Source: Hyphochytrium catenoides (Eukaryota; Sar; Hyphochytriomycetes; Hyphochytriales; Hyphochytriaceae). From it: a stretch of DNA of 24,295 nucleotides. How positions within the stretch are numbered: the stretch's first letter is position 1; each line of letters opens with the position of its first letter. Location: the NCBI GenBank assembly GCA_900088475.1, contig FLMG01001651.1:53942-78236 (forward strand). The letters run 5' to 3'. The position numbers and the translations under genes were made by a program. The notes under the pieces were generated by a model. The model saw only the letters and a program-made list of their open reading frames with translations. It did no database searches and was not told the origin of the DNA. Below are positions 2,354-21,429 of the stretch, in pieces.

Positions 2354-3793
2354 CTACTCATCTCCAGCTTCTGCTTGAGAGATCTCAACAGTGGCAAGCA
2401 GATCCTTCAGCTCTTGCTCAGTTAGAATGTGTCGTACAATTTTTCCGTCGACCCTATGAACGACGCAGATGCATAGTGGTCAGAGACTGAACGAGCAGCC
2501 ACTAGTATGGCTTAGCAACATGATATATAGAACCCTTACCTCTTTAGAGTCATAAGCTCAATTTTCTCCGCGGATGGTGTGGTCGTGTCCATGCTCTTTG
2601 TAAGGACCTGTCAAGCATAGTCAGCCGTCGACATGGTCCTTAATCATCGTAAGTAGCGAGAAAGAGACATACTAGCACTTAATGAGACGCAAACTATGAG
2701 CAACGAGGCTCACGACAGGGGGAGTAGGCTCCGTTGCCTCGTGGCCCGCCCAATTCGATGAGGAGCAATAATGGAGGAGCACTGTGATTTGGACAATGGC
2801 CCGTAAACTTTGATCCTTCCTTACCTTGACAGCTAGCTTTAGTGCGTCATTAATGGAGCAGTTCTCCACATATTCATTCTTGAGCAGTCTCTTGGCTGGC
2901 TCATTGTTAGCACCGATGGCAGTAGCCTTCCACCCACTAAAATTGCCACTTGGGTCGCTGTGATAGAGCTGGAATCTATGGTGCTCATCCCACCCAGCGT
3001 AGAGGAATGAAACACCAAAAGGTCGCTGACCTAGGAAGCGCATGCCAAAGAGAGGGTGGAGGCAGTACGAGAGGAAAGCTCAGCTATAAGTAGAGAGAAG
3101 CAAGGGACGTAACACTTTTCTCCCACCTCCGAACTGAGTGTAAGCTTGCTTGTAGTTGCAGACGGACTGAATGAGCTGCTCCACTGGGATGGGCTCCTGA
3201 TACGTCAACTCGTGCCTTTGAGCAGTTAGCCGCGCATAGTTGATAAGAATATTTGAATCGGCAGTCAGACCTTGAAGGAGTAATGAGGTGCGGAGGAGTT
3301 AGTTTTTAAGCTTCGTCTTGGTGCTCTCTCTAGGACATACCAGCAACTGCGCAGATAAGGTGATCTGCTAGCGGCAGCATCTTCTCACTGCTCTTTGGAG
3401 GTGCGAGAAGCTTTGACATGGTTTTCTTTCCAGCTACGAAAGCAAGGAACATGAAAACGAGGTGAATAAGGAGTATGGCCTCTCGCAGGGCTGACAATGA
3501 CAAACCTCCTAAGACTATGCCCTCTGACGAGAGGATTCCTACTGCGGAGCCAGCATTATTGATAGCTTCCATCGCATACTCGACCTGGAAGAGTCGGCCT
3601 GGATGTTCACAAAGATCGAGTGACATGGTTAGACAAGTTTCCAAAGCTGCAACATATAGAAAGGCCACTGAACACACCATCTGGCGAAAAGGTGGTGGTC
3701 CGGCTATCGTAACGGCGAGCCTGTAAAAGGGAAGGGCACACGTGTTAGACTTCAATATCCACCAGGACAATCTCTCCCACGGCTAGTTACCAT
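2354..3793 (-). CDS. PSMA4: 20S proteasome subunit alpha type-4 (yeast alpha3 position)
   Basis: A structural, non-catalytic subunit of the outer alpha ring of the 20S proteasome, the chamber that degrades ubiquitinated proteins. Exons on the minus strand: 3791-3793, 3678-3720, 3506-3598, 3341-3433, 3127-3270, 2825-3030, 2540-2607 and 2354-2453, giving 249 residues, close to the usual length of about 250-260. The start reads [16 protein letters not shown] followed by [12 protein letters not shown], the alpha-subunit signature. Later landmarks are [33 protein letters not shown] and [12 protein letters not shown], which fit the alpha-4 paralogue rather than other alpha subunits. The tail is acidic (AEAGDE). 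The first coding exon holds only the start codon, and 70 bp of intron follow before the second exon. The gene diverges from the SNF2 gene. Confidence 0.95.
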
Positions 3794-4543: not shown

Positions 4544-7500
4544 ATGGTGGATGTTCGGCATCATGCCACAAATGGCATCCTCAGTATCTCAACCACGTTG
4601 AAGCTTGGACGCGGGAGCATGCTGGGTGACTATACGATCAGGTGAGGGTAACTAAAGCGAAAGAGCTACATCAGCTTCGCTAATAGAATGCTCTCAGCAA
4701 CCCCCGCCTCAGCCTGAACCAGGTCCGGCTCGAGCCAAATAAAGAGGTATGGATACCAGCAACTCCCTCAGCGGCCACCTTCCTACTAGGTGGTTCCCCC
4801 TTTCGCCTTTCTCTTTCCATGTCCCGCTTGTAGCCACACGCCGCTCCAGGCAATCAAGAGGTTCATTGTTTTGTCTTCCCTTTGGTCTTCAGGGTAGCCT
4901 CTTGCTGACGTGTCTGGGCACTCGACCTAGCCTTTGGATCAAGAAGGGAACGGACCAGGTCTCTCGTATTCTCTTTAACGAGAGTGTCAGGTTGCATCCC
5001 GGGTAAGGGCAGTGCACGAGAGTTCTCTAACACCGCCGATCGCGAGACCTGCAGTTTCAGACAAATGTTGACATTTGTTTACGCGCTTTGCCTGATCTCC
5101 TTCCGCCGTCATGCATGATACTTGTCACTTGTCTGATTGAGCTAGTCAACATGGTATACCGCGCACTCATAGAAGTTCTACACAGTGACAGCTTTTTTCT
5201 TGGGGACGATAAGAGTGAGTGCTTTGAAGTGTGCCAGGACACAGCTACCAAAGTGCAGAATGTTGCTGGAAAGGGCAAAGATGCCGGAGAAACAAGCGGA
5301 GAAGCTTGGTCCCAGTCTTTATCGCAATACTCCTATAGTAGCGCACAGAGCGCTGAGAAACCAATGTATAAAGGAGGAGAGGATGACCCAGCGACACCAC
5401 TGGTGAAAAATGGAAAGAGGAAGGCGAAAAGAGCGGTAGTGGACTCCGATGAAGAAGAGTTAGACGAAGAAGAGAGCCCCAAAGTCGGCAGAAGCACTAG
5501 AAATGAAGACGAAGAAGACAACTTAAGGCTCATTGATCTCACTGTCGCTGAAAAAGAGGCGAAGCCTCAGAATGGAAAGCTGAAGATGCCACAAATTTCT
5601 TCTTCTGGGTGGATTAAGATACCCCCAAAGACGAGCAGAGACGTTCTAAAGCAAAGCCGGAAGAGCAAAAAGAAAGAAAAAAAGAGCAAGGGAAAAGGTC
5701 GGTACTTAGAGGGCCGCTGTTGTTTCTTCTAACTGACTCACAACCCTTTTTGGCCGTGATAGGTACATCCTCTAGAGGATCCAGGAAGTGGGTTATTGAT
5801 TCTGATGAAGAAGATTCTGAGGTGGAGGAAGTCAAGGAGGATGCCGAGGAAGAAATCGTCGTGTCTGACAATGACACTGATTCGTCTGGTCCGGGAGATG
5901 ATGTCTTCGAAGAAGAAGAGGAGGAGGAAGAGAATCGGTTTGTTGCTAACATTTTGAACCGCTGCGCTACGCTTTCTGCTAAGATGAGAAGTCTGCTGGA
6001 TCTCCGTGAGGCGGACGGTGAGTTGGCATACTTGTTCCCTGCACGTGATCCTCGTTTAGGCCGCTATTTGCACGTGAGTTGAGGTATTGAACTTGCGTTA
6101 GCAGCACCTGCCGGCACAGCGATGATTCCTACGCTCACTTGTCTCCTTGGACCTTAAGCTATAACGTCCTGACTTTCTGACTGTCTTTTTCTCTAGGGGA
6201 CGCCAGGACCAACGCCACGTCATTAGACCCTTCAAAAGTCAGCACGACACTTGTCTCTCAAGAAGATATCTTTGGACTCTCGCCCTCTCTTCGACTGAAG
6301 TCCTACCAGTTAGTCGGTGTCAACTGGCTGCTGACTCTCCACCGCCAAGGAGTAAGTGGCGTCTTGGCGGATGAGATGGGCCTCGGAAAGACGGTTCAGA
6401 CTATTGCTTTTCTGGCGCTGTTAAACACGATGGAGATGAAGTCCGGAGAGCGAAAAGGTCGGGTACTTGTCTCCGCAATCGTCGTTTTACCTTCATCCAA
6501 TGCTGCAGCTCCCACATTCTCAAACTTGTTTACCGTCTCCTCCCTTCCCTTCCATGACAGGCCCCCATCTAGTCGTAGTGCCAGCTAGTGTCCTGACTAA
6601 CTGGAAGCTGGAGATTCAGAAGTTCTGTCCGGTGCTCCGAGTGGAGGTGTATCACGGTTAGAAGCTCACTTATCTCGAGATCATTCTTTCTAGCGTCATT
6701 TCTCTCTTACCGGCTTATGCGGCTTTACTTCACTTTGAACTCGCCGTAGGCCTGCAGAAAGAGCGTTACGAGATTCAAGATAGAATCAGAAGCGATGAGG
6801 ATTTCGATATACTCCTGACTACGTACTCTTACTTTGAGCGGGACGCCTGCAAAGATGATAGGTGAGCCACATCATTGGAACTTTATGGAGGGAGTAGAGT
6901 CAACGATCCCTACTGGACTTCTATAACTCTGCTGGCTGTGGAGTGTGCACGTGCTCCTGCGGTGTGCGAACTCTCTAAGCTAGGGGTGGCATTGTCTTTC
7001 TTTAACATACTTATTGCGACAGCTACAAGCTGCTCCTATTCCTGAAGCGAACCCCTTACGTGCTCTTTCTTCAGTGGGGAGTCCTCCGCCAACTAACGTT
7101 TCGAGGAAGCTCAGCCTCACCTCTCCTTAGCGGCTATCCTTCGCTGACCTCTTTCAACTCCACGATACCTCACAGGAGCTGGCTACGACGGTTCTCTTTT
7201 GGGTACATGGTCCTGGACGAAGGTCACAGCGTGAAAAATAGCAAGAGTTCACGTTTTACGCGCCTCATGGCTGTCAACTCGTCTCACCGGCTGCTTCTCT
7301 CTGGGACGCCGGTCCAGAACGCGCTCAGTGAACTACTATCCATCCTGACCTTCATCATGCCCAGCATATTTGATTGTGGCAGGTAGGGGTTTACTTCCTA
7401 GGCAGATTGAAGATACGCCCCCCACTGTCAATCTTTGCAAACTAAAGGGCTTTGTCCTTTCCCAAAGAACACGATTTTGGCTCTTTCTATCATTTACTGC

Positions 7501-10202
7501 CGATGATCCTCTTTTTCTGCGTTGGGAAGGGATGCGTTGTATCCAGTTTCCGCTTTACTCTCTTTGATCAATGCTTTCCCATGCTGTCTGCTTCCGTCTA
7601 TTTTGCTGCCTCTTTCTCCTCTGTCAATATGCGTGTCCGACTCTCAACTGCTGCCCGTTCTTCCTTGTTGTTTCCCCTCTCTCCCTTGTTGTTTCCCCTC
7701 TCTGTCCTTTCGCGTTTTTCCTTCTCTCTCCTCCTGTCCTCTCCTTTAACTATACTATGTCATGTCCCCTAAAGTGAGAAGTTTCAAGAGTGGTTCAATT
7801 CTGCGGCGGATCAGGCCGAGAGGCTGCAGCAAATCAAAACAATTTTGGGTACGTGCCAACTCAGATAACGTATCTCTAGTCACTACCGTGTACACACAGA
7901 TGATGTGACCTCTATAGTCCTTTGTTTTGCAATACCCACCAGATGCTGTATGCCTTCCAGGCCATCGTTCTTGCTCTTCCTTGGCTATACATCCTTAGTT
8001 AGGCCGGGTCTGTTGATTCTCTTCAATCTCCTCCAGCGCCTTTCGTTCTTCGCAGACTAAAGGCGGAAGTGCTGGATCAGCTCCCTGGGAAGAACGTGCG
8101 TGTTGAAATGATCTCTATGGATTCGCAGCAGCAAGAACTCTACACAGCTATTCTTAAGAGAGAAGCGGAGAAAAGGAAAGAACGTGGAAAGACTGCTCCA
8201 ACTGCTGGAAAAGGAGAGAATCAACGCGAAGAGAACGGAGATAAAGAGCCAGTAAGGCGGAAGCGCCAGAGAACAGGGATTCTAAGGTCACTTTACGTCT
8301 CTTACAAATGCTCTAGCGCCTGCAACTCAAGATCATCGGGTTCCGACACCTTGCTCTGCATACAATTCTCCCTTTGACAGACCGTTATTCTTAGCACTCT
8401 TCCCCTTTCTATAGAGAGCTGGCCAGTCTACAAGACGGACTTTCTACAAATAGAAAAGTAAAGAGCAAGTCCCAGGAGCCTTCAGCGAACGAAGTAAAGC
8501 ATCTTTTTACAGAGCTGAGGAAGGCATCGAACCATCCGTTGCTGCTACGGACCAGGTTGATCTTTTTTCCTCTAACATTACCGAACGCCCGCTGGGTCCT
8601 GACCTACAGCTGCTCTTATCTTCAAACTGCCTGTCTTGTTAATGTTCCCCCATCCTCGAGGAAACTGCTACTGACCTTTAGCAGCAGCATGCCTGTATCC
8701 TCTCTCCAAGCTCCCTGGTATCTGTGAGGTCCCTATGTATTGCGCCTTTTGCTAACTGCCTTTCCACAGATATGTAGACCCGGAAACTCTTAAATCTATG
8801 GCCGAGGCGCTACAAGCTCGGGGAGCCTTTGGGAATAGCTGCACGGTAGCGATGGTTCTGCGAGAGATTGAAGGCTATAGCGATTTTCAGCTCCATTCTC
8901 TATGTGTCGAATACAGACTTACCCAATGGCAGCTCCCTAAAGAGGTAAGAGGAGGGGAGTACGTGGAGATAGGAGGCCAAACATTGGAGCCAAACCCCAG
9001 CATTGACCTTCAGGCTGAACAGCAAAGCTTGAGAATGTGACATCTGTTGCTTCTTCAAACTGACGTTGCCATTCCAGGCACTATTGCGGTCATGTAAGCT
9101 CGACTTCCTGAAGGGCTACTTGCCCACCCTGCAGAAGCAGGGAAGAAGGGTCTTGCTCTTCTCCCAGTGGACAAAGCTTCTTGATCTGTTAGAAATATTT
9201 ATGGGGCACATGCAGGTAAGGGCAAGTAGACTTGAGGAGGCTGTGGAGATTCTAGTAGTAGCTCTCTTGCTCAGATTGATCCTGCCATCGATCCTACCTC
9301 TGTTTCTTTATCTGATTCTATGGACTTGTTGGGACTTCCTTCGTCGTTCTACGGTCACGATTCTTCTGAAAAAGAAACCCCATACATCGCTACCTGCAGA
9401 AAACTTACTTCTTGCGAATTTCTGGATAGTTCCAATACCTTCGTCTGGATGGTCAAACCGCTGTGTCTGAGCGACAGGATCTGATCGATAAGTTTACTAA
9501 GGATAAGGACATTTTCATCTTCCTTCTCTCAACTAGAGCCGGCGGTCTAGGACTCAACCTTACAGCGGCAGGTATCATGCAGGACCACGTCCTAGCTAGA
9601 CAGTCTTTTTTCGCTTGAACAACCAAGAATAGTTTCGCACTTCTCTTCCTGTCAGCTTTTGTGCATCTCATGGGCACGTGGACAGCCTTCACACTAACGC
9701 AGGCATCATAACCCTTTGTGTTTCTTCATTATCTCCCGAATTATTATCCCCCTTGCTTCCAGACACAGTCATCTTACACGACCTGGACTTCAATCCGCAC
9801 AACGATAGACAGGTAAGGAAAGACTTTCCCATAATACCTAGCGAATTTTCTGCCATTTAGAAGCGTTGGGACCGAGTATAAGTTAGAGGAGATGCGGCAA
9901 TGCAAGCTCAACGCGCACAATGTTCAACAATCACCATGCATCCCTTTGCACCGCCAGTAACAAATCTGTTCTCTTCATCATTAACTTGCCAGGCGGAGGA
10001 CCGGTGTCATCGCATTGGTCAAACCCGCGATGTGACGGTGATAAAGCTCGTCACAATTGGGACCGTAGACGAAGATATTCTGCGCGTGGGAGAGCGGAAA
10101 AAAGAGCTTGACGAAGCGCTGCTCGGCGAGGGAGAGGACGACACAGCCACAATGGAGACGATGATTGCCAGAGCTATATCTTCACTAAACCCTAATAGCT
10201 AA
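4544..10202 (+). CDS. SMARCAD1: SNF2-family chromatin remodeller, Fun30/SMARCAD1 type
   Basis: An ATP-dependent nucleosome remodeller of the nucleus. In yeast and animals this subfamily acts in silencing and DNA-end resection. Exons: 4544-4641, 4698-4746, 4893-4958, 5061-5697, 5763-6017, 6197-6457, 6561-6656, 6750-6861, 7176-7382, 7775-7848, 8037-8286, 8415-8555, 8770-8944, 9078-9215, 9430-9571, 9763-9812, 9993-10202; 986 residues. Residues about 77-115 look like a CUE ubiquitin-binding fold ([10 protein letters not shown]...RALIEVL). A Lys/Glu-rich acidic linker with two VxDSDEE motifs follows. Helicase motifs run in order: DEMGLGKT (about 426), [15 protein letters not shown] (about 539), [39 protein letters not shown] and [14 protein letters not shown] instead of DEAH is typical of this subfamily. 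The ATG at 4544 follows an in-frame TAA. The helicase half is certain. Exons 1-3 are supported only by matching phases and coding-like sequence. Confidence 0.93.
7663..7704. repeat. 21-bp tandem duplication inside a pyrimidine-rich intron
   Basis: Two adjacent copies of a 21-base unit (CCTTGTTGTTTCCCCTCTCT plus one base) occupy 7663-7683 and 7684-7704, differing only at the last base. They lie in the 392-bp intron 7383-7774 of the SNF2 gene, the longest intron in that gene. The plus strand of this intron is strongly C/T-rich. It looks like a recent replication-slippage event. Confidence 0.9.
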
Positions 10203-10886: not shown

Positions 10887-13800
10887 CTATCGTCGTCCTT
10901 TCGGCTCATCCACCTGCATCTTGTGTTCCTGGACGGAGACACCACAAACGTTTGTGGTGATCTCATGAACGATGTCCTACAAGCAGCATGTGTCAGGACC
11001 CGGCAATGCCCAATAGCATGGGCCAAGAACAAAGTGCAAAGCGTAACAAGGACTAAAGACCAACCTGGTCACTTTCTAAGAACGGAACTCTCCGCGCCTC
11101 AATGCCTGCGAAGTAGGCCAAGAAAACTCTCATAACAGCCTGCATCCGAGAAATAACGTACTACAGTGAGTCCGTGCTCATATTGGCATCAGGTGGAGTC
11201 AACTAGGTGCACAAGAGCATCGATGATGAAGAGGACGGCGCATACTACTGCATGCGGGTAGTATGAAGGGGAATTATAGCCACGAATGGTGCCAAAGTAA
11301 GACTACAGCTTTGAAAGACTGGTCTAGAGACGCGAATGAGGTTAGGAGGACCTTGTGACAGACAACAACGACGGTACTCCGTTGCCTCTCCAGTTCTACT
11401 ATAAGTGGCCTTAGCCTCTCTATGACGTCCATATAGGACTCTCCACCAACACCTGGGTATCTACGGACAGTTGACAGCGGGTGAGATGCCATATGGGGGT
11501 CTTGGGAACGAAGGAAGACATAAAAGATGGTTGTGGAAAAAGACTGGCAACCTAGAGCCACAGCAAGAGCCAGCGAGGAGATAGTCTTAACGGAAAAGGA
11601 GCGGCTCTCAACACATAAGCTTAAAGTTCCACTTACATACCTGTAATTGAGTTTATCGTTCTGTCTGGCTTCATATTGCTCCGGGTACAGCTTCTTGATC
11701 TCATCGTAGGTTAGCCCTTCCATATCCCCACCTCCCAGCTCGTTCAGTAAAGGTGTGGTCAAGTGTTCACAGTTAGGGGAGTTATAGTACGAGAGGCACT
11801 CCTGTACACGTTGCGCTGTTCCTGTTTAAGAGAAAGCAAAAGGAGGATTAGCGCAGAAGAAGTAGACACATAGTGTTGCGCGATAGGACTTCATAGTAAG
11901 GGAACCTAATCGGCAGCTACTAGTGAGAAGACCTGAACTGAGGAAGCTAGACACACGGAAAATGAAGTGGCAGACAGAAGCACGAATGGAACAATAGCTC
12001 AATGCGCACATCGAAAATGCTCTAGTTGATGCCGGACTGAAAATAACAAATAACCACGTTGTTTGGCGGCGGAAGGGCCTTAACAAGCTCGACCCACCTC
12101 CCCAAACCAATAGCTTCCCTTTATAGGAGGACTCCCTCTGAAGGATGAACTGAGAGATCTGTCTTGCCAATCGGTGGCCCCGGTCTGTAAGGCCCAGATC
12201 TAGTCCCAGTACGTTGAACTTCATATTCTCATTCTCACCCGGGCGAACCAGATATATCCGACGAGGGTGGAGATGAATGTTCTGGAGAGACATGAGCCAG
12301 TAAGTGGGCCGATGAGGAACGTGACAGTAGGAAAAAAGGAAGCAAGATTAAAAGTGGGAATACGCATGGATGGGTTGAGACAGCCAAGTTTGGAAAACCG
12401 TTGTTGAATCTCAAACGACCAGTAGAGCATAGAAAGAACCCGACATACCTGAAGGAAAAACACAACTTGGCTGGCCAAGTAGCCGTCACAACCGCGTGCA
12501 GTCACCTTAGCGCCAACCTATGAAGGCAGTTAGAAATGAATGCACGTGAGGCCAGCTGTACAATGGGAGAGTGGCAGTTCTCAGATAGCTAGCGGAAACG
12601 AGGAAGAGTTCCGCGGGCCGAGAGCTATAACGCTATAAATTGCGCACACTTTTGGCATAGGCAGAACTTACATTGTAAATTTTTATGTAGCGAACCTTGC
12701 CATCTGCTTCCGTATCCTCTAGAGTTTCGTAAATCTAGTAAAGGATGGCACGCAAGGGCAAAGGTTGTCAGCCACGAGCTAGCCAAAACAGGCAAGATAG
12801 GACAGCCGATCGGACCTTCTCGTAGGCAGCTACCCTTTGCTTGAAGTCCTGAATGGCTTTTTCCTGATCACGTCCTGAATAATCTGCGTTGGCAGCTTTG
12901 CTGCGAGAGACGTTGACTCAGAACGAAGTATTATAGATACTTTCTCTTTCAGACACCTCTTCAACCACCGAGCGTGATGTCAACGGCTGCCAGGTTCAAC
13001 TCGGACCTTGATCATTCTTCATTCTCGTCTACTCCTCTTTCGCGCACTCCTTCTGCTAACCACTGTCACACATCTTGCACCTGATACGCCTCCTTCATCG
13101 ACACTATGCGTCTCATCCGTGAGGGTCTGAAGTCTCTATTGTTGCTTCCTGCTTTACCTTCTATAGTTTGACTCTAATATGTCTGGGTCATTGCAGATCG
13201 ACTCGATAAAAATGACATCCACTGAAGGGACTCCCGCGCACCGCTGAATCACCTTTTCGCTAAAAGAAGTGGTGTGATGGTGTTAGAGATATAGAGAAAG
13301 TACCCCAGGAAGAAAGTCTCCATGTGGATGCTCACGAATCAGTGCTAAGCATTAGAATGAGGAAAAGCTGGGACTCACCGCCTGGCCCGAGTAGTATTTG
13401 TAGCATCAAAGACAGCCACTTGACCTTCTTCTGCTAACCACTCCAGTAGTTCTATACAGAAGAGAGCAAGGTCAGGAACAATTAGATGAAGCGATAAGGA
13501 GCAGTAACGTCAGACAAGGTCTAGGCTGAACAGTCAGAATCTTGAAAGCGCTCCTTATAAGATAAGAAGACCTCCTACCATCTAGAGTATCCATTGCCAT
13601 TTGTTCCCTAAGCTCCTTACTCTTAACGTTGCTCGGTTCAAAGAACGAAGCATCCTCTCCTGCATGTCCTACTTGCCGCCGTCTCTCCCCAGCGTTGAAG
13701 GTCTTCGACTCCACACTTACCCAATTCAAATAGCGAATGATCTTACGGGTTATAAAGCTCTTGCCCCGCGCTGGAAGCCCTACCATGACTAAGACCAGCT

Positions 13801-14011
13801 TGTCTTGGACTCCCAGGGCTTTCAGGGTGCCGCTATGCGGAGCATTACGGCTTGTCAAGCTGTCAGAACGCCGTTTCTCATCTTTGACACAATGCACCCT
13901 TGATATGTGATATGGGCGTGGAGGGCCACTGGAATAAAGCCTCCATGCGATGGCCGTAGCCAGAAAACCGAAAAAGAACTGAGCTACCGCGGCCCGAACG
14001 TCCATTGCCAT
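10887..14011 (-). CDS. PFKFB: 6-phosphofructo-2-kinase/fructose-2,6-bisphosphatase with altered phosphatase site
   Basis: The family's bifunctional enzyme makes and breaks fructose 2,6-bisphosphate, the signal that sets glycolytic flux. Exons: 13579-14011, 13379-13451, 13158-13259, 12816-12900, 12672-12734, 12449-12517, 12098-12281, 11641-11821, 11352-11460, 11065-11139, 10887-10976; 487 residues, near the animal length. The kinase half has the P-loop GLPARGKS (78-85), RYLNW, FNAGERRR and FDATNTTR. The phosphatase half has IYLVRPGENEN, LGLTDRG, EGLTYDEI (Glu371), VVCHK (His432) and AVMRVFLAYF. The catalytic His expected in RHGEN is Pro289 (CCG at 12240-12242), so phosphatase activity is predicted to be lost. 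Residues about 7-26 are hydrophobic (AAVAQFFFGFLATAIAW), a possible membrane anchor or targeting signal. Start is ATG 14011; a second in-frame ATG lies two codons later. Confidence 0.95.
11241..11265. repeat. Intronic inverted repeat (8-bp stem, 9-nt loop)
   Basis: CATACTAC at 11241-11248 and GTAGTATG at 11258-11265 are perfect inverted arms around nine bases. They lie in the PFK-2 intron 11140-11351. Nothing links this to a known element and it may be chance. Confidence 0.6.
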
Positions 14012-16030: not shown

Positions 16031-16777
16031 TCCTAGTCCCTTTGGCTGTGCAACATACGCCTAATAACCCTGACCATAGCTGTTGTCGCCCTGGCTGCAC
16101 AATTTCTACATGGTCATCGCCTCTTCTCCTCGTTTGGATGCTTGCCGCAGCCGATGACCGCAGCCGATTGTCATCGGCGAAAGAAGAGAGGTTTACGCTT
16201 GAAACAGTAGTAGAGAGTGGAGGAAAGAGATCGAAACGACACACCATCCAGAAGGAAACTTACCTGTTATTGAAGGAATTGAAAAGAAATGTTTCCCTCA
16301 AATAAAAGCATAACGCAACAGAAATTTAACAAGGAGATTTATAGTTTCTTTGTTTCGATCGGAATCCCTCACACTCTTCCCGCACCAACCAAAGTCATAC
16401 AGTGTACGGGAAGGCAGAGGCACGGCAAGACTATCAGGGATAGGTCCACATTATCTTTCCATAACAACTATGACTTGTATTCTGATAGCTACAGTAATAA
16501 CTGGAGTTTGTGCCATTCTGGCTCGAACATGGCCCATCTCCAAAGTTGCGTTATCCGTAATCTGACTACCCTCGCGCAAGGAGCGGCGATGTCGGTGGTG
16601 GTGCGGAGTCTTCAGTCTTCAGAGCAATGTTTCTGCCATCCTCGTCCATGAGGCAGCCGCAGACATCTTCCAAGGCAAGTTTAGCTGGCGTGAAGGGACA
16701 ATCGAGCACACAGAGGCTGCTGAGCGCCTCCTTGCCACAGTTGACATCACATAGCGAAAAGACATAAGCTGGACAAG
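16031..16777. other. Intergenic region upstream of RRS1; no confident gene
   Basis: This 747-bp stretch follows the copia relic and must hold the RRS1 promoter and leader. It contains a strong hairpin at 16150-16178 and an AATAAA at 16301-16306. A 31-codon ATG frame at 16470-16565 encodes a mostly hydrophobic peptide (MTCILIATVITGVCAILAR and on) of unknown meaning. Frames at 16042-16305 and 16566-16799 show no family resemblance. Confidence 0.5.
16150..16178. repeat. Perfect 9-bp inverted repeat with 11-nt loop
   Basis: GCCGATGAC at 16150-16158 pairs exactly with GTCATCGGC at 16170-16178. The loop repeats part of the left arm, since CCGCAGCCGAT is present twice in tandem across this spot. 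It could be a hairpin in a transcript or a replication relic. No family was recognised. Confidence 0.8.
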
Positions 16778-18282
16778 ATGGGAGCTGCAGAGAATTCAAA
16801 GACGAAGGGTGACAAGAAGGTGATCAAGGGCTCTGACATCGCACCAGAAGCGTTTCAGGCCCCTGCTCCTGAAAAGCAGGATGACCTGAACTATGATCTT
16901 GGGAACCTAGCGGCATTCGACGAGCATCCTGTGGATCTCTCCAGGCTTGGTTCAAATCCTAAGCAATATTTGCTTGAGACGGCCACTGAGAATGCGCAAC
17001 TCCTGATCAACAAAATATTCGCCCTTCCCGTAGAAAAGACTGATGTTGGCCCCATTGTAAGTTAGAGAACATCTCCTTGTCTCAGGCTTACTCTAACAGC
17101 GTCGTATATATCAGGCCACCCTGCCCCCTGACACCACGCCTATTCCTAGGGCTAGGCCACTACCGAAGCCAAAGGTTGAGACGCGATGGGAAAAGTTTGC
17201 TCGTGAGAAGGGCATCAAGAAACGCAAGAAGAGTCGCATGGTCTACGATGAACAGGCGGGAGAATACAAAGCGGCGTGGGGCTACAAGGTACTTTTTGAG
17301 TTTCAAGCTCCCTAAAAGCATCCTCCACATTAGCTCCAGACGCTTCTTAGATCTTACGTCTTCTGGGGCTATTTTTTGACATTTATTACTAGGCTTGTGG
17401 GCACGATATTGGACTGCGTCCTAGCCCTTCTGACCCTGGCGCACCTATGTCAAGGACTGATGTGATCTCTTCCTCCTTTGCTTTCCTCTTGGGTTTTACG
17501 GGCATGGAAACTTATGTCATGCTTCTCTTTCGACTACGCTTACCGCCTTCACTCCATTACTTCTTAACAGAGGGCCAATGATGACTCTCAAGACTGGGCA
17601 ATGGAAGTCAAGCAGGGGTCAGATCCTAATGCTGACCCATGGACAGAGCGAAAGCAGGCGAAGGCGGGAAGAGTTGCAAAGAATCTTAGGCAAAGGGCAA
17701 ATAATCTTGCACAAGGGAGAGGGCGTCCTGGCACTCTCCCTACTGGAATCCCACTTGACCTTGTTCAAGAGGGTGGTAAGAGAGGCAAGTCCGGAACGAA
17801 GAGAACCCTTGAAGCCGTCCAAACATCTACTGCTTCAATGGGGAAGTTTGATGAGCACAGACCTGGAGAAGGCGAAAGAAAGAAACGCGGAAAGCGAAGA
17901 AAGTTCGAGGCTGTCGTCGGGCATGAGGACAAGGAGAAAGCGCGGTACGACACTGTCATGAATCAGATCCTCTCGAAGGATAGCAGGAAGAGCTCCAATG
18001 AGGTGAATGTTCACGCTCCAGATGCTGAATCAAAGAAAAGGAAAAAGGTAGGAACCTGTTCTCTGTCTGGTGTTCAAATATCGTTTTGTTTAAGATGGTC
18101 CCACGCGGATTTTATCACCATTGCTATCACTGTTCCTCAACTCGCCCACACGTCGTTTGTTACTAGCGCAATGTTCTTTTGCCGAAGCTAACTTGGTACT
18201 GATTACTTCACAGGGTAAGGGATCGGGTCGTGGAGTGGCAAAGAAAGTATCCAGAAGCGCCAAGAAGGGCGCAAAAAAGTGA
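16778..18282 (+). CDS. RRS1: Ribosome biogenesis regulatory protein RRS1
   Basis: RRS1 is a nucleolar factor needed for assembly of the large ribosomal subunit, where with its partner RPF2 it helps bring in the 5S RNP. Exons 16778-17056, 17115-17288, 17571-18047 and 18214-18282, all joined in phase 0, give 332 residues against about 365 in humans. The conserved N-terminal core reads LNYDLGNLAAFDEHP and ENAQLLINKIFALPVEK. It is followed by TRWEKFAREKGIKKRKKSRM, VYDEQAGEYKAAWGYK and RANDDSQDWAMEVKQGSDPN. The C-terminal third is very rich in Lys, Arg and Glu, ending in a Lys/Gly/Ser tail, as expected of a nucleolar RNA-associated protein. Start is ATG 16778, the first ATG ahead of the conserved core. 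It converges with TMEM19 across 187 bp. Confidence 0.95.
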
Positions 18283-20913: not shown

Positions 20914-21429
20914 ATGTCCATGTATCTCAGGGTCAAAAGGAAGAATCAGACCGTCTTCTTGCACTGCGAGCCTACTGACACTTTTGCGGCTTTAAAGGAA
21001 AAGCTAAAGTCTGTCGTAGATAGAAGTGCCACCGATATCAAGCTACTCCACACCGATAAGGTCACAGCCGCTTCTGCCTATCTGCGTACATTTCCAGTAA
21101 CCCTACCTGGTTTACACCTAGCTACGGCCTCTTCTGCCACAATCAGGCCCGCAGCTCTGCATCTCTATCCTCTCCTTCTCTCGAAGACACCAACAGTTCC
21201 TTTCCACCGCCAAACTGGTACTACTTCATACTTACCAAATCGCGTTTCCCCTGTATGTATGCAGACGCGAGAGCTTCAAGATCCCGCTTCAGTTCAGGAT
21301 TTTGAATTGGAAACTGACGCCATCATCTTCATGGTGCTTCGTCTAGATGGTAAGCTATTGCCCCTTCGGAAGAGACACTCGCGTGCACCGCGAACACAAG
21401 GGGGAAGTGATGAGCAGGCAAAGGAGTGA
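20914..21429 (+). CDS. ELOB: Elongin B (ubiquitin-like adaptor subunit)
   Basis: Elongin B pairs with elongin C as the adaptor of cullin-RING (CUL2/CUL5-type) ubiquitin ligases and in the elongin transcription factor. Exons 20914-21060, 21265-21349 and 21401-21429 give 86 residues, against 118 in humans. The ubiquitin-like fold opens with MSMYLRVKRKNQTVFL, matching the animal start M-D-V-F-L-M-I-R-R-H-K-T-T-I-F. It continues with FAALKEKLKSVV, IKLLHTDK and, after the intron, TRELQDPASVQDF and AIIFMVLRLD, then a short tail ending DEQAKE. The ATG at 20914 is chosen because it matches the family start. Both introns (204 and 51 nt) are multiples of three without stops, so an unspliced transcript would also be open. 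The fold match makes elongin B the best call; a generic ubiquitin-like protein is the alternative. Confidence 0.82.
   Translation: MSMYLRVKRKNQTVFLHCEPTDTFAALKEKLKSVVDRSATDIKLLHTDKVTAASAYLRTFPVTLPGLHLATASSATIRPAALHLYPLLLSKTPTVPFHRQTGTTSYLPNRVSPVCMQTRELQDPASVQDFELETDAIIFMVLRLDGKLLPLRKRHSRAPRTQGGSDEQAKE

Follow-up and report, generated by a model that had tools for sequence, protein, structure and literature searches.

The stretch of DNA analysed here (the window) covers 24,295 nucleotides of the Hyphochytrium catenoides genome and carries, at 14011-10887 on the reverse strand, a PFK-2/FBPase-2 gene whose exon model was rebuilt from the sequence (Table 1). The gene has 11 exons, and its ten introns of 81-276 bases are all GT...AG and in phase, giving an open frame of 487 amino acids. 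The predicted protein carries both Pfam domains, 6PF2K (252.3 bits) and His_Phos_1 (87.1 bits), which places it in the PFK-2/FBPase-2 family, and over its residues 68-478 it can be aligned with human PFKFB3. The region is present as a single copy in the assembly, where no second allele was found, and a plasmid search gave no match.

Table 1. Positions in the window of the parts of the PFK-2/FBPase-2 gene and of individual codons.
Feature	Position	Strand	Basis
Exon 1: start codon to kinase domain, with N-terminal hydrophobic stretch and Walker A inside	13579..14011	-	exon model
Hydrophobic stretch, residues 5-23 (VRAAVAQFFFGFLATAIAW), candidate membrane anchor	13943..13999	-	hydropathy
Walker A GLPARGKS, residues 78-85	13757..13780	-	translation of exon model
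Exon 2: Walker B segment DATNTTR, residues 160-166	13379..13451	-	exon model
Exon 3	13158..13259	-	exon model
Exon 4	12816..12900	-	exon model
Exon 5	12672..12734	-	exon model
Exon 6	12449..12517	-	exon model
Exon 7: FBPase-2 domain begins	12098..12281	-	exon model and domain search
Pro289 codon CCG, where RHG with the catalytic phosphohistidine becomes RPG	12240..12242	-	sequence, exon model, alignment column
Exon 8: V-W-G-G at the junction with exon 7 (junction is a model)	11641..11821	-	exon model
Glu364 codon, kept; aligns with catalytic Glu of PFKFB3	11739..11741	-	alignment
Exon 9	11352..11460	-	exon model
His432 codon for the second catalytic His, retained here but not in the 18 tabulated oomycete rows	11355..11357	-	alignment
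Exon 10	11065..11139	-	exon model
Exon 11 and stop codon	10887..10976	-	exon model

Elsewhere in the window, open frames at about 5031-10202 (+), convergent with the PFK-2 gene, contain what we take to be SNF2-type helicase motifs, and the frames at 3330-3782 (-) and 20914-21429 (+) resemble a proteasome alpha subunit and elongin-B, respectively. ARAGORN called a tRNA-SeC at 16824-16901 (-), possibly a false positive, which overlaps an open frame at 16745-17065 (+) that looks to us like the ribosome-biogenesis protein RRS1.

Catalytic residues of the window protein

Phosphatase catalysis in this family runs via a phosphohistidine, assisted by a Glu and a second His. In the window protein the reverse-strand codon at 12242-12240 is CCG, within CTG GTT CGC CCG GGT GAG AAT (L-V-R-P-G-E-N), such that the R-H-G of bifunctional enzymes reads R-P-G with proline, which cannot be phosphorylated, at residue 289. 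The catalytic Glu and the second His are both present (Glu364 and His432), as are the binding columns Arg, Tyr and Lys, and the phosphatase half is full length. The columns of Asn (RHGENEH-N) and Gln (CH-Q) have lost these residues as well, and V-W-G-G stands in the spliced model where V-W-T-S is canonical, a loss of T-S that hinges on how exons 7 and 8 are joined. Script enumeration at this junction returned 28 single-intron in-phase GT-AG alternatives, the chosen one included, and 191 two-intron combinations (introns of at least 50 bases) that take in PASTR in frame, 91 of which retain KGKLLVW. The single join 12098/11821 was retained because it gives a gapless alignment with ochrophyte homologues (VLAGTA.VHAETVL), and it is still a model. 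A micro-exon from the intron 7 stretch SPASTRAF, which resembles the missing T-S..R, was set aside; the 20 inspected of the 191 combinations all mismatch the spacing in relatives. The Pro289 codon lies well within exon 7 and is unaffected by the choice of junction.

On the kinase side, the Walker A Lys, the Walker B Asp, the F6P Arg pair and the catalytic Lys column are all in place, with GLPARGKS beginning at residue 78 and DATNTTRARR at residue 160, and the ten tested columns are identical to those of PFKFB3 save for a Thr to Ser replacement in Walker A. A first-pass annotation, made from the letters of the window, had described a 487-residue protein with CCG at Pro289 and intact kinase P-loop and nucleotide motifs; the rebuilt 11-exon model returned the identical length, numbering and codon, and the kinase columns bear out the description of that half. 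It had also listed Glu371 and His432 as kept phosphatase residues. Both are present and His432 is the second catalytic His, but alignment of LN-E-IDAG identifies Glu364 as the catalytic Glu, equivalent to Glu322 in the PFKFB3 numbering given in the accessible part of PMC6937325, which places the His column at 253. The annotation's prediction of a kinase-only enzyme is likely correct as far as these residues can tell; they are best read as those of an enzyme that acts as a kinase only or with a strong kinase bias, in which some phosphatase activity may survive.

Proline and other letters at the His column of relatives

Aligning the protein with family members, as the first-pass annotation had proposed, drew on a homologue search in which 7993 candidates were scored and the best 120 aligned. 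At the His column these best 120 of 7993 have His in 42 cases, Pro in 31, Thr in 16, Asn in 15, Val in 5, Ser and Leu in 3 each, Ile and Ala in 2 each and a gap in 1, and R-H-G plus the second His are all retained in 11, five of which are fungal. Proline recurs in relatives, and the notion that the His to Pro change is singular is not borne out: among the best 120, 24 rows are of the oomycete type, with Pro in 21 and Val (P0012), Ser (P0037) and a gap (P0025) in one each. Eighteen of these 24 were tabulated (P0001-P0018; 14 with oomycete names and four unnamed metagenome proteins). They resemble the window protein in domains, in their N-terminal stretch and in the His column, which is Pro in 17 and Val in one. 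In all 18 the second His is replaced (by Ser in 12, Asn in 5 and Asp in 1); these proteins keep T-S, whereas the window protein keeps the second His (His432) and G-E and lacks T-S in the model. Judged by these alignments, loss of the His is a property of the clade, common to oomycetes, and is both real and old. The first-pass annotation had argued against a single read error from the two base changes that separate His from CCG, and with the same Pro standing in relatives (21 of 24 oomycete-type rows) a base error is indeed unlikely; although the assembly holds the region as a single copy, the chance that the proline arose in sequencing or assembly is close to negligible.

The ten non-oomycete rows with Pro (P0022, P0029, P0032, P0034, P0039, P0051, P0060, P0063, P0104 and P0113) have it in other sequence contexts, such as R-P-A-E-S, and the letter is therefore probably of multiple origin. 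In 27 other kinase-type rows, of which the named ones are ochrophytes, the Gly after the His column is Ala in 22 and the Ser of T-S is Gly in all 27; 11 of them retain the catalytic His, and 25 the second one. The ten kinase columns are retained in these kinase-type groups, except for the Walker A Thr to Ser replacement, an Arg column that varies and a single gap where the Lys should stand.

A kinase-domain tree was built from 65 rows picked from 99, with long-branched and near-identical rows left out. Here 14 oomycete rows, of the oomycete-type kinase PFK-2, form the sister group of the window protein, with support (91/92) just below the program's starred level; beside them stands a group of 36 other rows (100/99), and the union of the two groups is weak (83/59). 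A quick tree of all 99 rows placed the window protein identically, with support of 91. The 65-row tree requires a minimum of 5 switches between His and any other state (12 when counted by letter), and 3 at the second His. By these residue patterns, the phosphatase site has been damaged repeatedly, and in differing ways, across the stramenopile kinase-type homologues.

The N-terminal stretch of the window protein has a hydropathy of 1.51 over 19 residues, within the 5% tail of its own shuffles. Using a threshold of 1.2, which was chosen after this stretch had been examined, and rows that begin with Met, have at least 60 residues before Walker A and possess the Walker A motif, we found that a comparable stretch begins 14 of the 18 oomycete rows that could be used (24 given) and 62 of 76 such rows among the others (91 given), as against 4 of 52 from the paralogue search (120 given) and neither of 2 from fungi (5 given). 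By hydropathy, the window protein thus shares this feature with its kinase-type relatives. Four of the six non-fungal rows that retain R-H-G and the second His also have it (P0068, P0084, P0092 and P0109), and the stretch is therefore not tied to phosphatase loss. The pattern suggests a membrane anchor on a normally soluble enzyme, or an algal targeting signal.

A second PFK-2 gene with the opposite damage

The genome search for a phosphatase-competent paralogue, likewise proposed in the first pass, covered 42.5 Mb in 1105 contigs and, from 7 scored candidates, yielded one further PFK-2 gene, on contig C576, whose predicted protein has all 16 tested phosphatase columns intact. Its exon model has one GC-AG intron, the others being GT-AG, and a first exon pair for which no phase was settled; CBM pieces upstream match AMPK1_CBM with 52.9 bits when joined. 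Among the matches listed, the protein is closest to CBM-bearing oomycete proteins, and it is the orthologue in this genome of the oomycete CBM-PFK-2/FBPase-2 (P0121-P0162; 97 SH-aLRT), which belongs to the same superfamily as the window gene but differs in its intact phosphatase and in the AMPK-type CBM in front. The His and second His are present in all 120 listed homologues. Two kinase columns read Ile in the paralogue, one that is Lys in 115 of the 120 listed homologues and one that is Thr in 112 of 120, and since Lys and Thr are both retained in 42 of 42 oomycete relatives of the CBM type, the kinase loss is special to the lineage of the window. PFK-family genes also occur on contigs C627 and C444, the latter with a GGDGT motif.

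Divergence of the two halves gave a mirror image between the genes. The window gene shares 54.7% identity in the kinase and 45.2% in the phosphatase with the 18 oomycete rows; for the paralogue against 42 oomycete rows the values are 42.3 and 73.4%. In a column bootstrap the kinase-minus-phosphatase distance was -0.095 for the window gene (95% interval -0.189 to -0.011) and 0.312 for the paralogue (0.225 to 0.395); the window gene is only slightly asymmetric, with an interval nearly at zero, and the asymmetry of the paralogue is clear of zero. Between oomycete orders, the CBM-type protein is asymmetric (0.375 for the kinase, 0.176 for the phosphatase) and the kinase-type protein is not (0.404 and 0.409), and this equal divergence of both halves argues against free decay of the phosphatase half.

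The two genes sit in DNA of differing repeat content. CT repeats are dense on C576, very much so in the introns of the paralogue (C576:1-12500, loci L006 and L056, where the AMPK-type CBM pieces also lie upstream of the gene), but the window has none. Twenty contig starts were sampled, of which five were all N (L031, L033, L035, L040 and L045), which limits genome-wide claims of absence, three were 34-63% N and one was 6% N; the remaining starts scatter in CT repeats and 3-mers, and the window is set off from C576, L027 and L043. Ribosomal L15e, S6e and L19e have one locus each in the genome, which argues against two eukaryotes in the assembly, and a genome search for eIF-6 found none and is uninformative on mixture. 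Both PFK-2 proteins have oomycete proteins as nearest relatives among the matches listed. It is probable that both genes come from one organism, despite the difference in repeats.

A probable division between a kinase-type and a phosphatase-type protein

Taken together, we assign a probability of roughly 0.7 to the reading that two genes handle fructose 2,6-bisphosphate by a division of labour, with the window gene supplying the isoenzyme dedicated to the kinase reaction. The phosphatase half of this isoenzyme would have little or no turnover of fructose 2,6-bisphosphate and would be retained mainly for folding or dimer reasons, and degradation would fall to the C576 paralogue, whose own kinase would have decayed; the presence of other histidine-phosphatase genes in the genome counts against that assignment of the eraser. 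Proline would have no special role, being one of several letters taken up after relaxed selection at the His column. Since the paralogue has intact phosphatase columns and a damaged kinase, the bias of the cell toward high fructose 2,6-bisphosphate predicted in the first pass does not follow. A structural role of the retained domain is probable from modelling of P0005, an oomycete protein that served as a proxy for the one in the window; the predicted structure of P0005 has a mean pLDDT of 85.9, above 90 through most of both domains, and a TM score of 0.89 by target length against PFKFB3 (6iby), a protein that shares this fold and, unlike the window protein, keeps the catalytic His.

The phosphatase half could instead act as a sensor for fructose 2,6-bisphosphate or fructose 6-phosphate, one that binds its ligand without turning it over and modulates the kinase or some partner. 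Its full length, the binding columns Arg, Lys and Glu retained in 18 of 18 tabulated oomycete rows, a divergence between oomycete orders no faster than that of the kinase, and the well-folded phosphatase domain predicted for the proxy are all consistent with this, but the same facts fit a structural role, and we consider the sensor unlikely. A similarly small chance goes to an enzyme that has remained bifunctional, its phosphatase being slow and working by another route, such as direct water attack with His432 and Glu364. These two residues and Arg288 are retained, and the rat enzyme carrying H256A reportedly has roughly a sixth of wild-type bisphosphatase activity. By its title, the paper on the rat testis H256A structure describes a mutant with bisphosphatase activity, which we count against a phosphatase-dead reading, and entry 2bif is titled as the H256A enzyme with F6P in the phosphatase site; the additional damage to the window protein, at its Asn and Gln columns and, if the model holds, at T-S, and the relatives that have lost the His432 equivalent as well speak against a slow phosphatase. 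That the gene is a decaying pseudogene seems very improbable: there are several active-site changes, and exons 7 and 8 allow more than one splicing, but the frame is open through 11 exons with in-phase GT-AG introns, the kinase residues are intact and orthologues are widely kept.

The kinase-dedicated reading has counterparts in other lineages. In the yeast proteins PFK26, PFK27 and FBP26 one activity was lost through a catalytic-residue change in one half, PFK26 reportedly by a comparable His to Ser change, and Michels and Rigden (in 2006) are said to have noted catalytic-residue loss of this kind in many protists. According to the accessible portion of PMC9721465, Myceliophthora PFK2-A has phosphatase activity only and PFK2-C kinase activity only, and one fungal subfamily (subfamily 2) has Ala in place of the RHG His; these monofunctional isoforms resemble the window gene in that a catalytic change in one half removes one activity, and differ from it in lineage and in replacement letter. 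Loss of the catalytic His is thus in itself of a kind already described for fungi. Human PFKFB3 has a strong kinase bias of about 740:1, as stated in the part of PMC6937325 available. Within the open-access literature, as far as its accessible text extends (including PMC12203962, PMC8879444, PMC2173943 and PMC12414984), we found no report of lost PFK-2/FBPase-2 catalytic residues or membrane anchoring in stramenopiles, nor of the pattern across stramenopiles, of Pro in place of the His or of the hydrophobic N-terminus.

A wider proposal, which we advance tentatively and at less than even odds, is that stramenopiles have two spatially separated enzymes, namely a kinase with a dead phosphatase half, anchored in a membrane by a helix at its N-terminus, and a phosphatase-type partner that carries an AMPK-type CBM and lost its kinase in the lineage of the window; the signal would then be made at the membrane and erased at the storage polysaccharide. 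Whether carbon flows toward glycolysis or toward gluconeogenesis is set by fructose 2,6-bisphosphate, and the textbook bifunctional switch is the protein responsible for both its synthesis and its breakdown. If it is true that a large lineage of algae and oomycetes has split these two jobs, with the maker on a membrane, then the switch there must work by separate control of two proteins.
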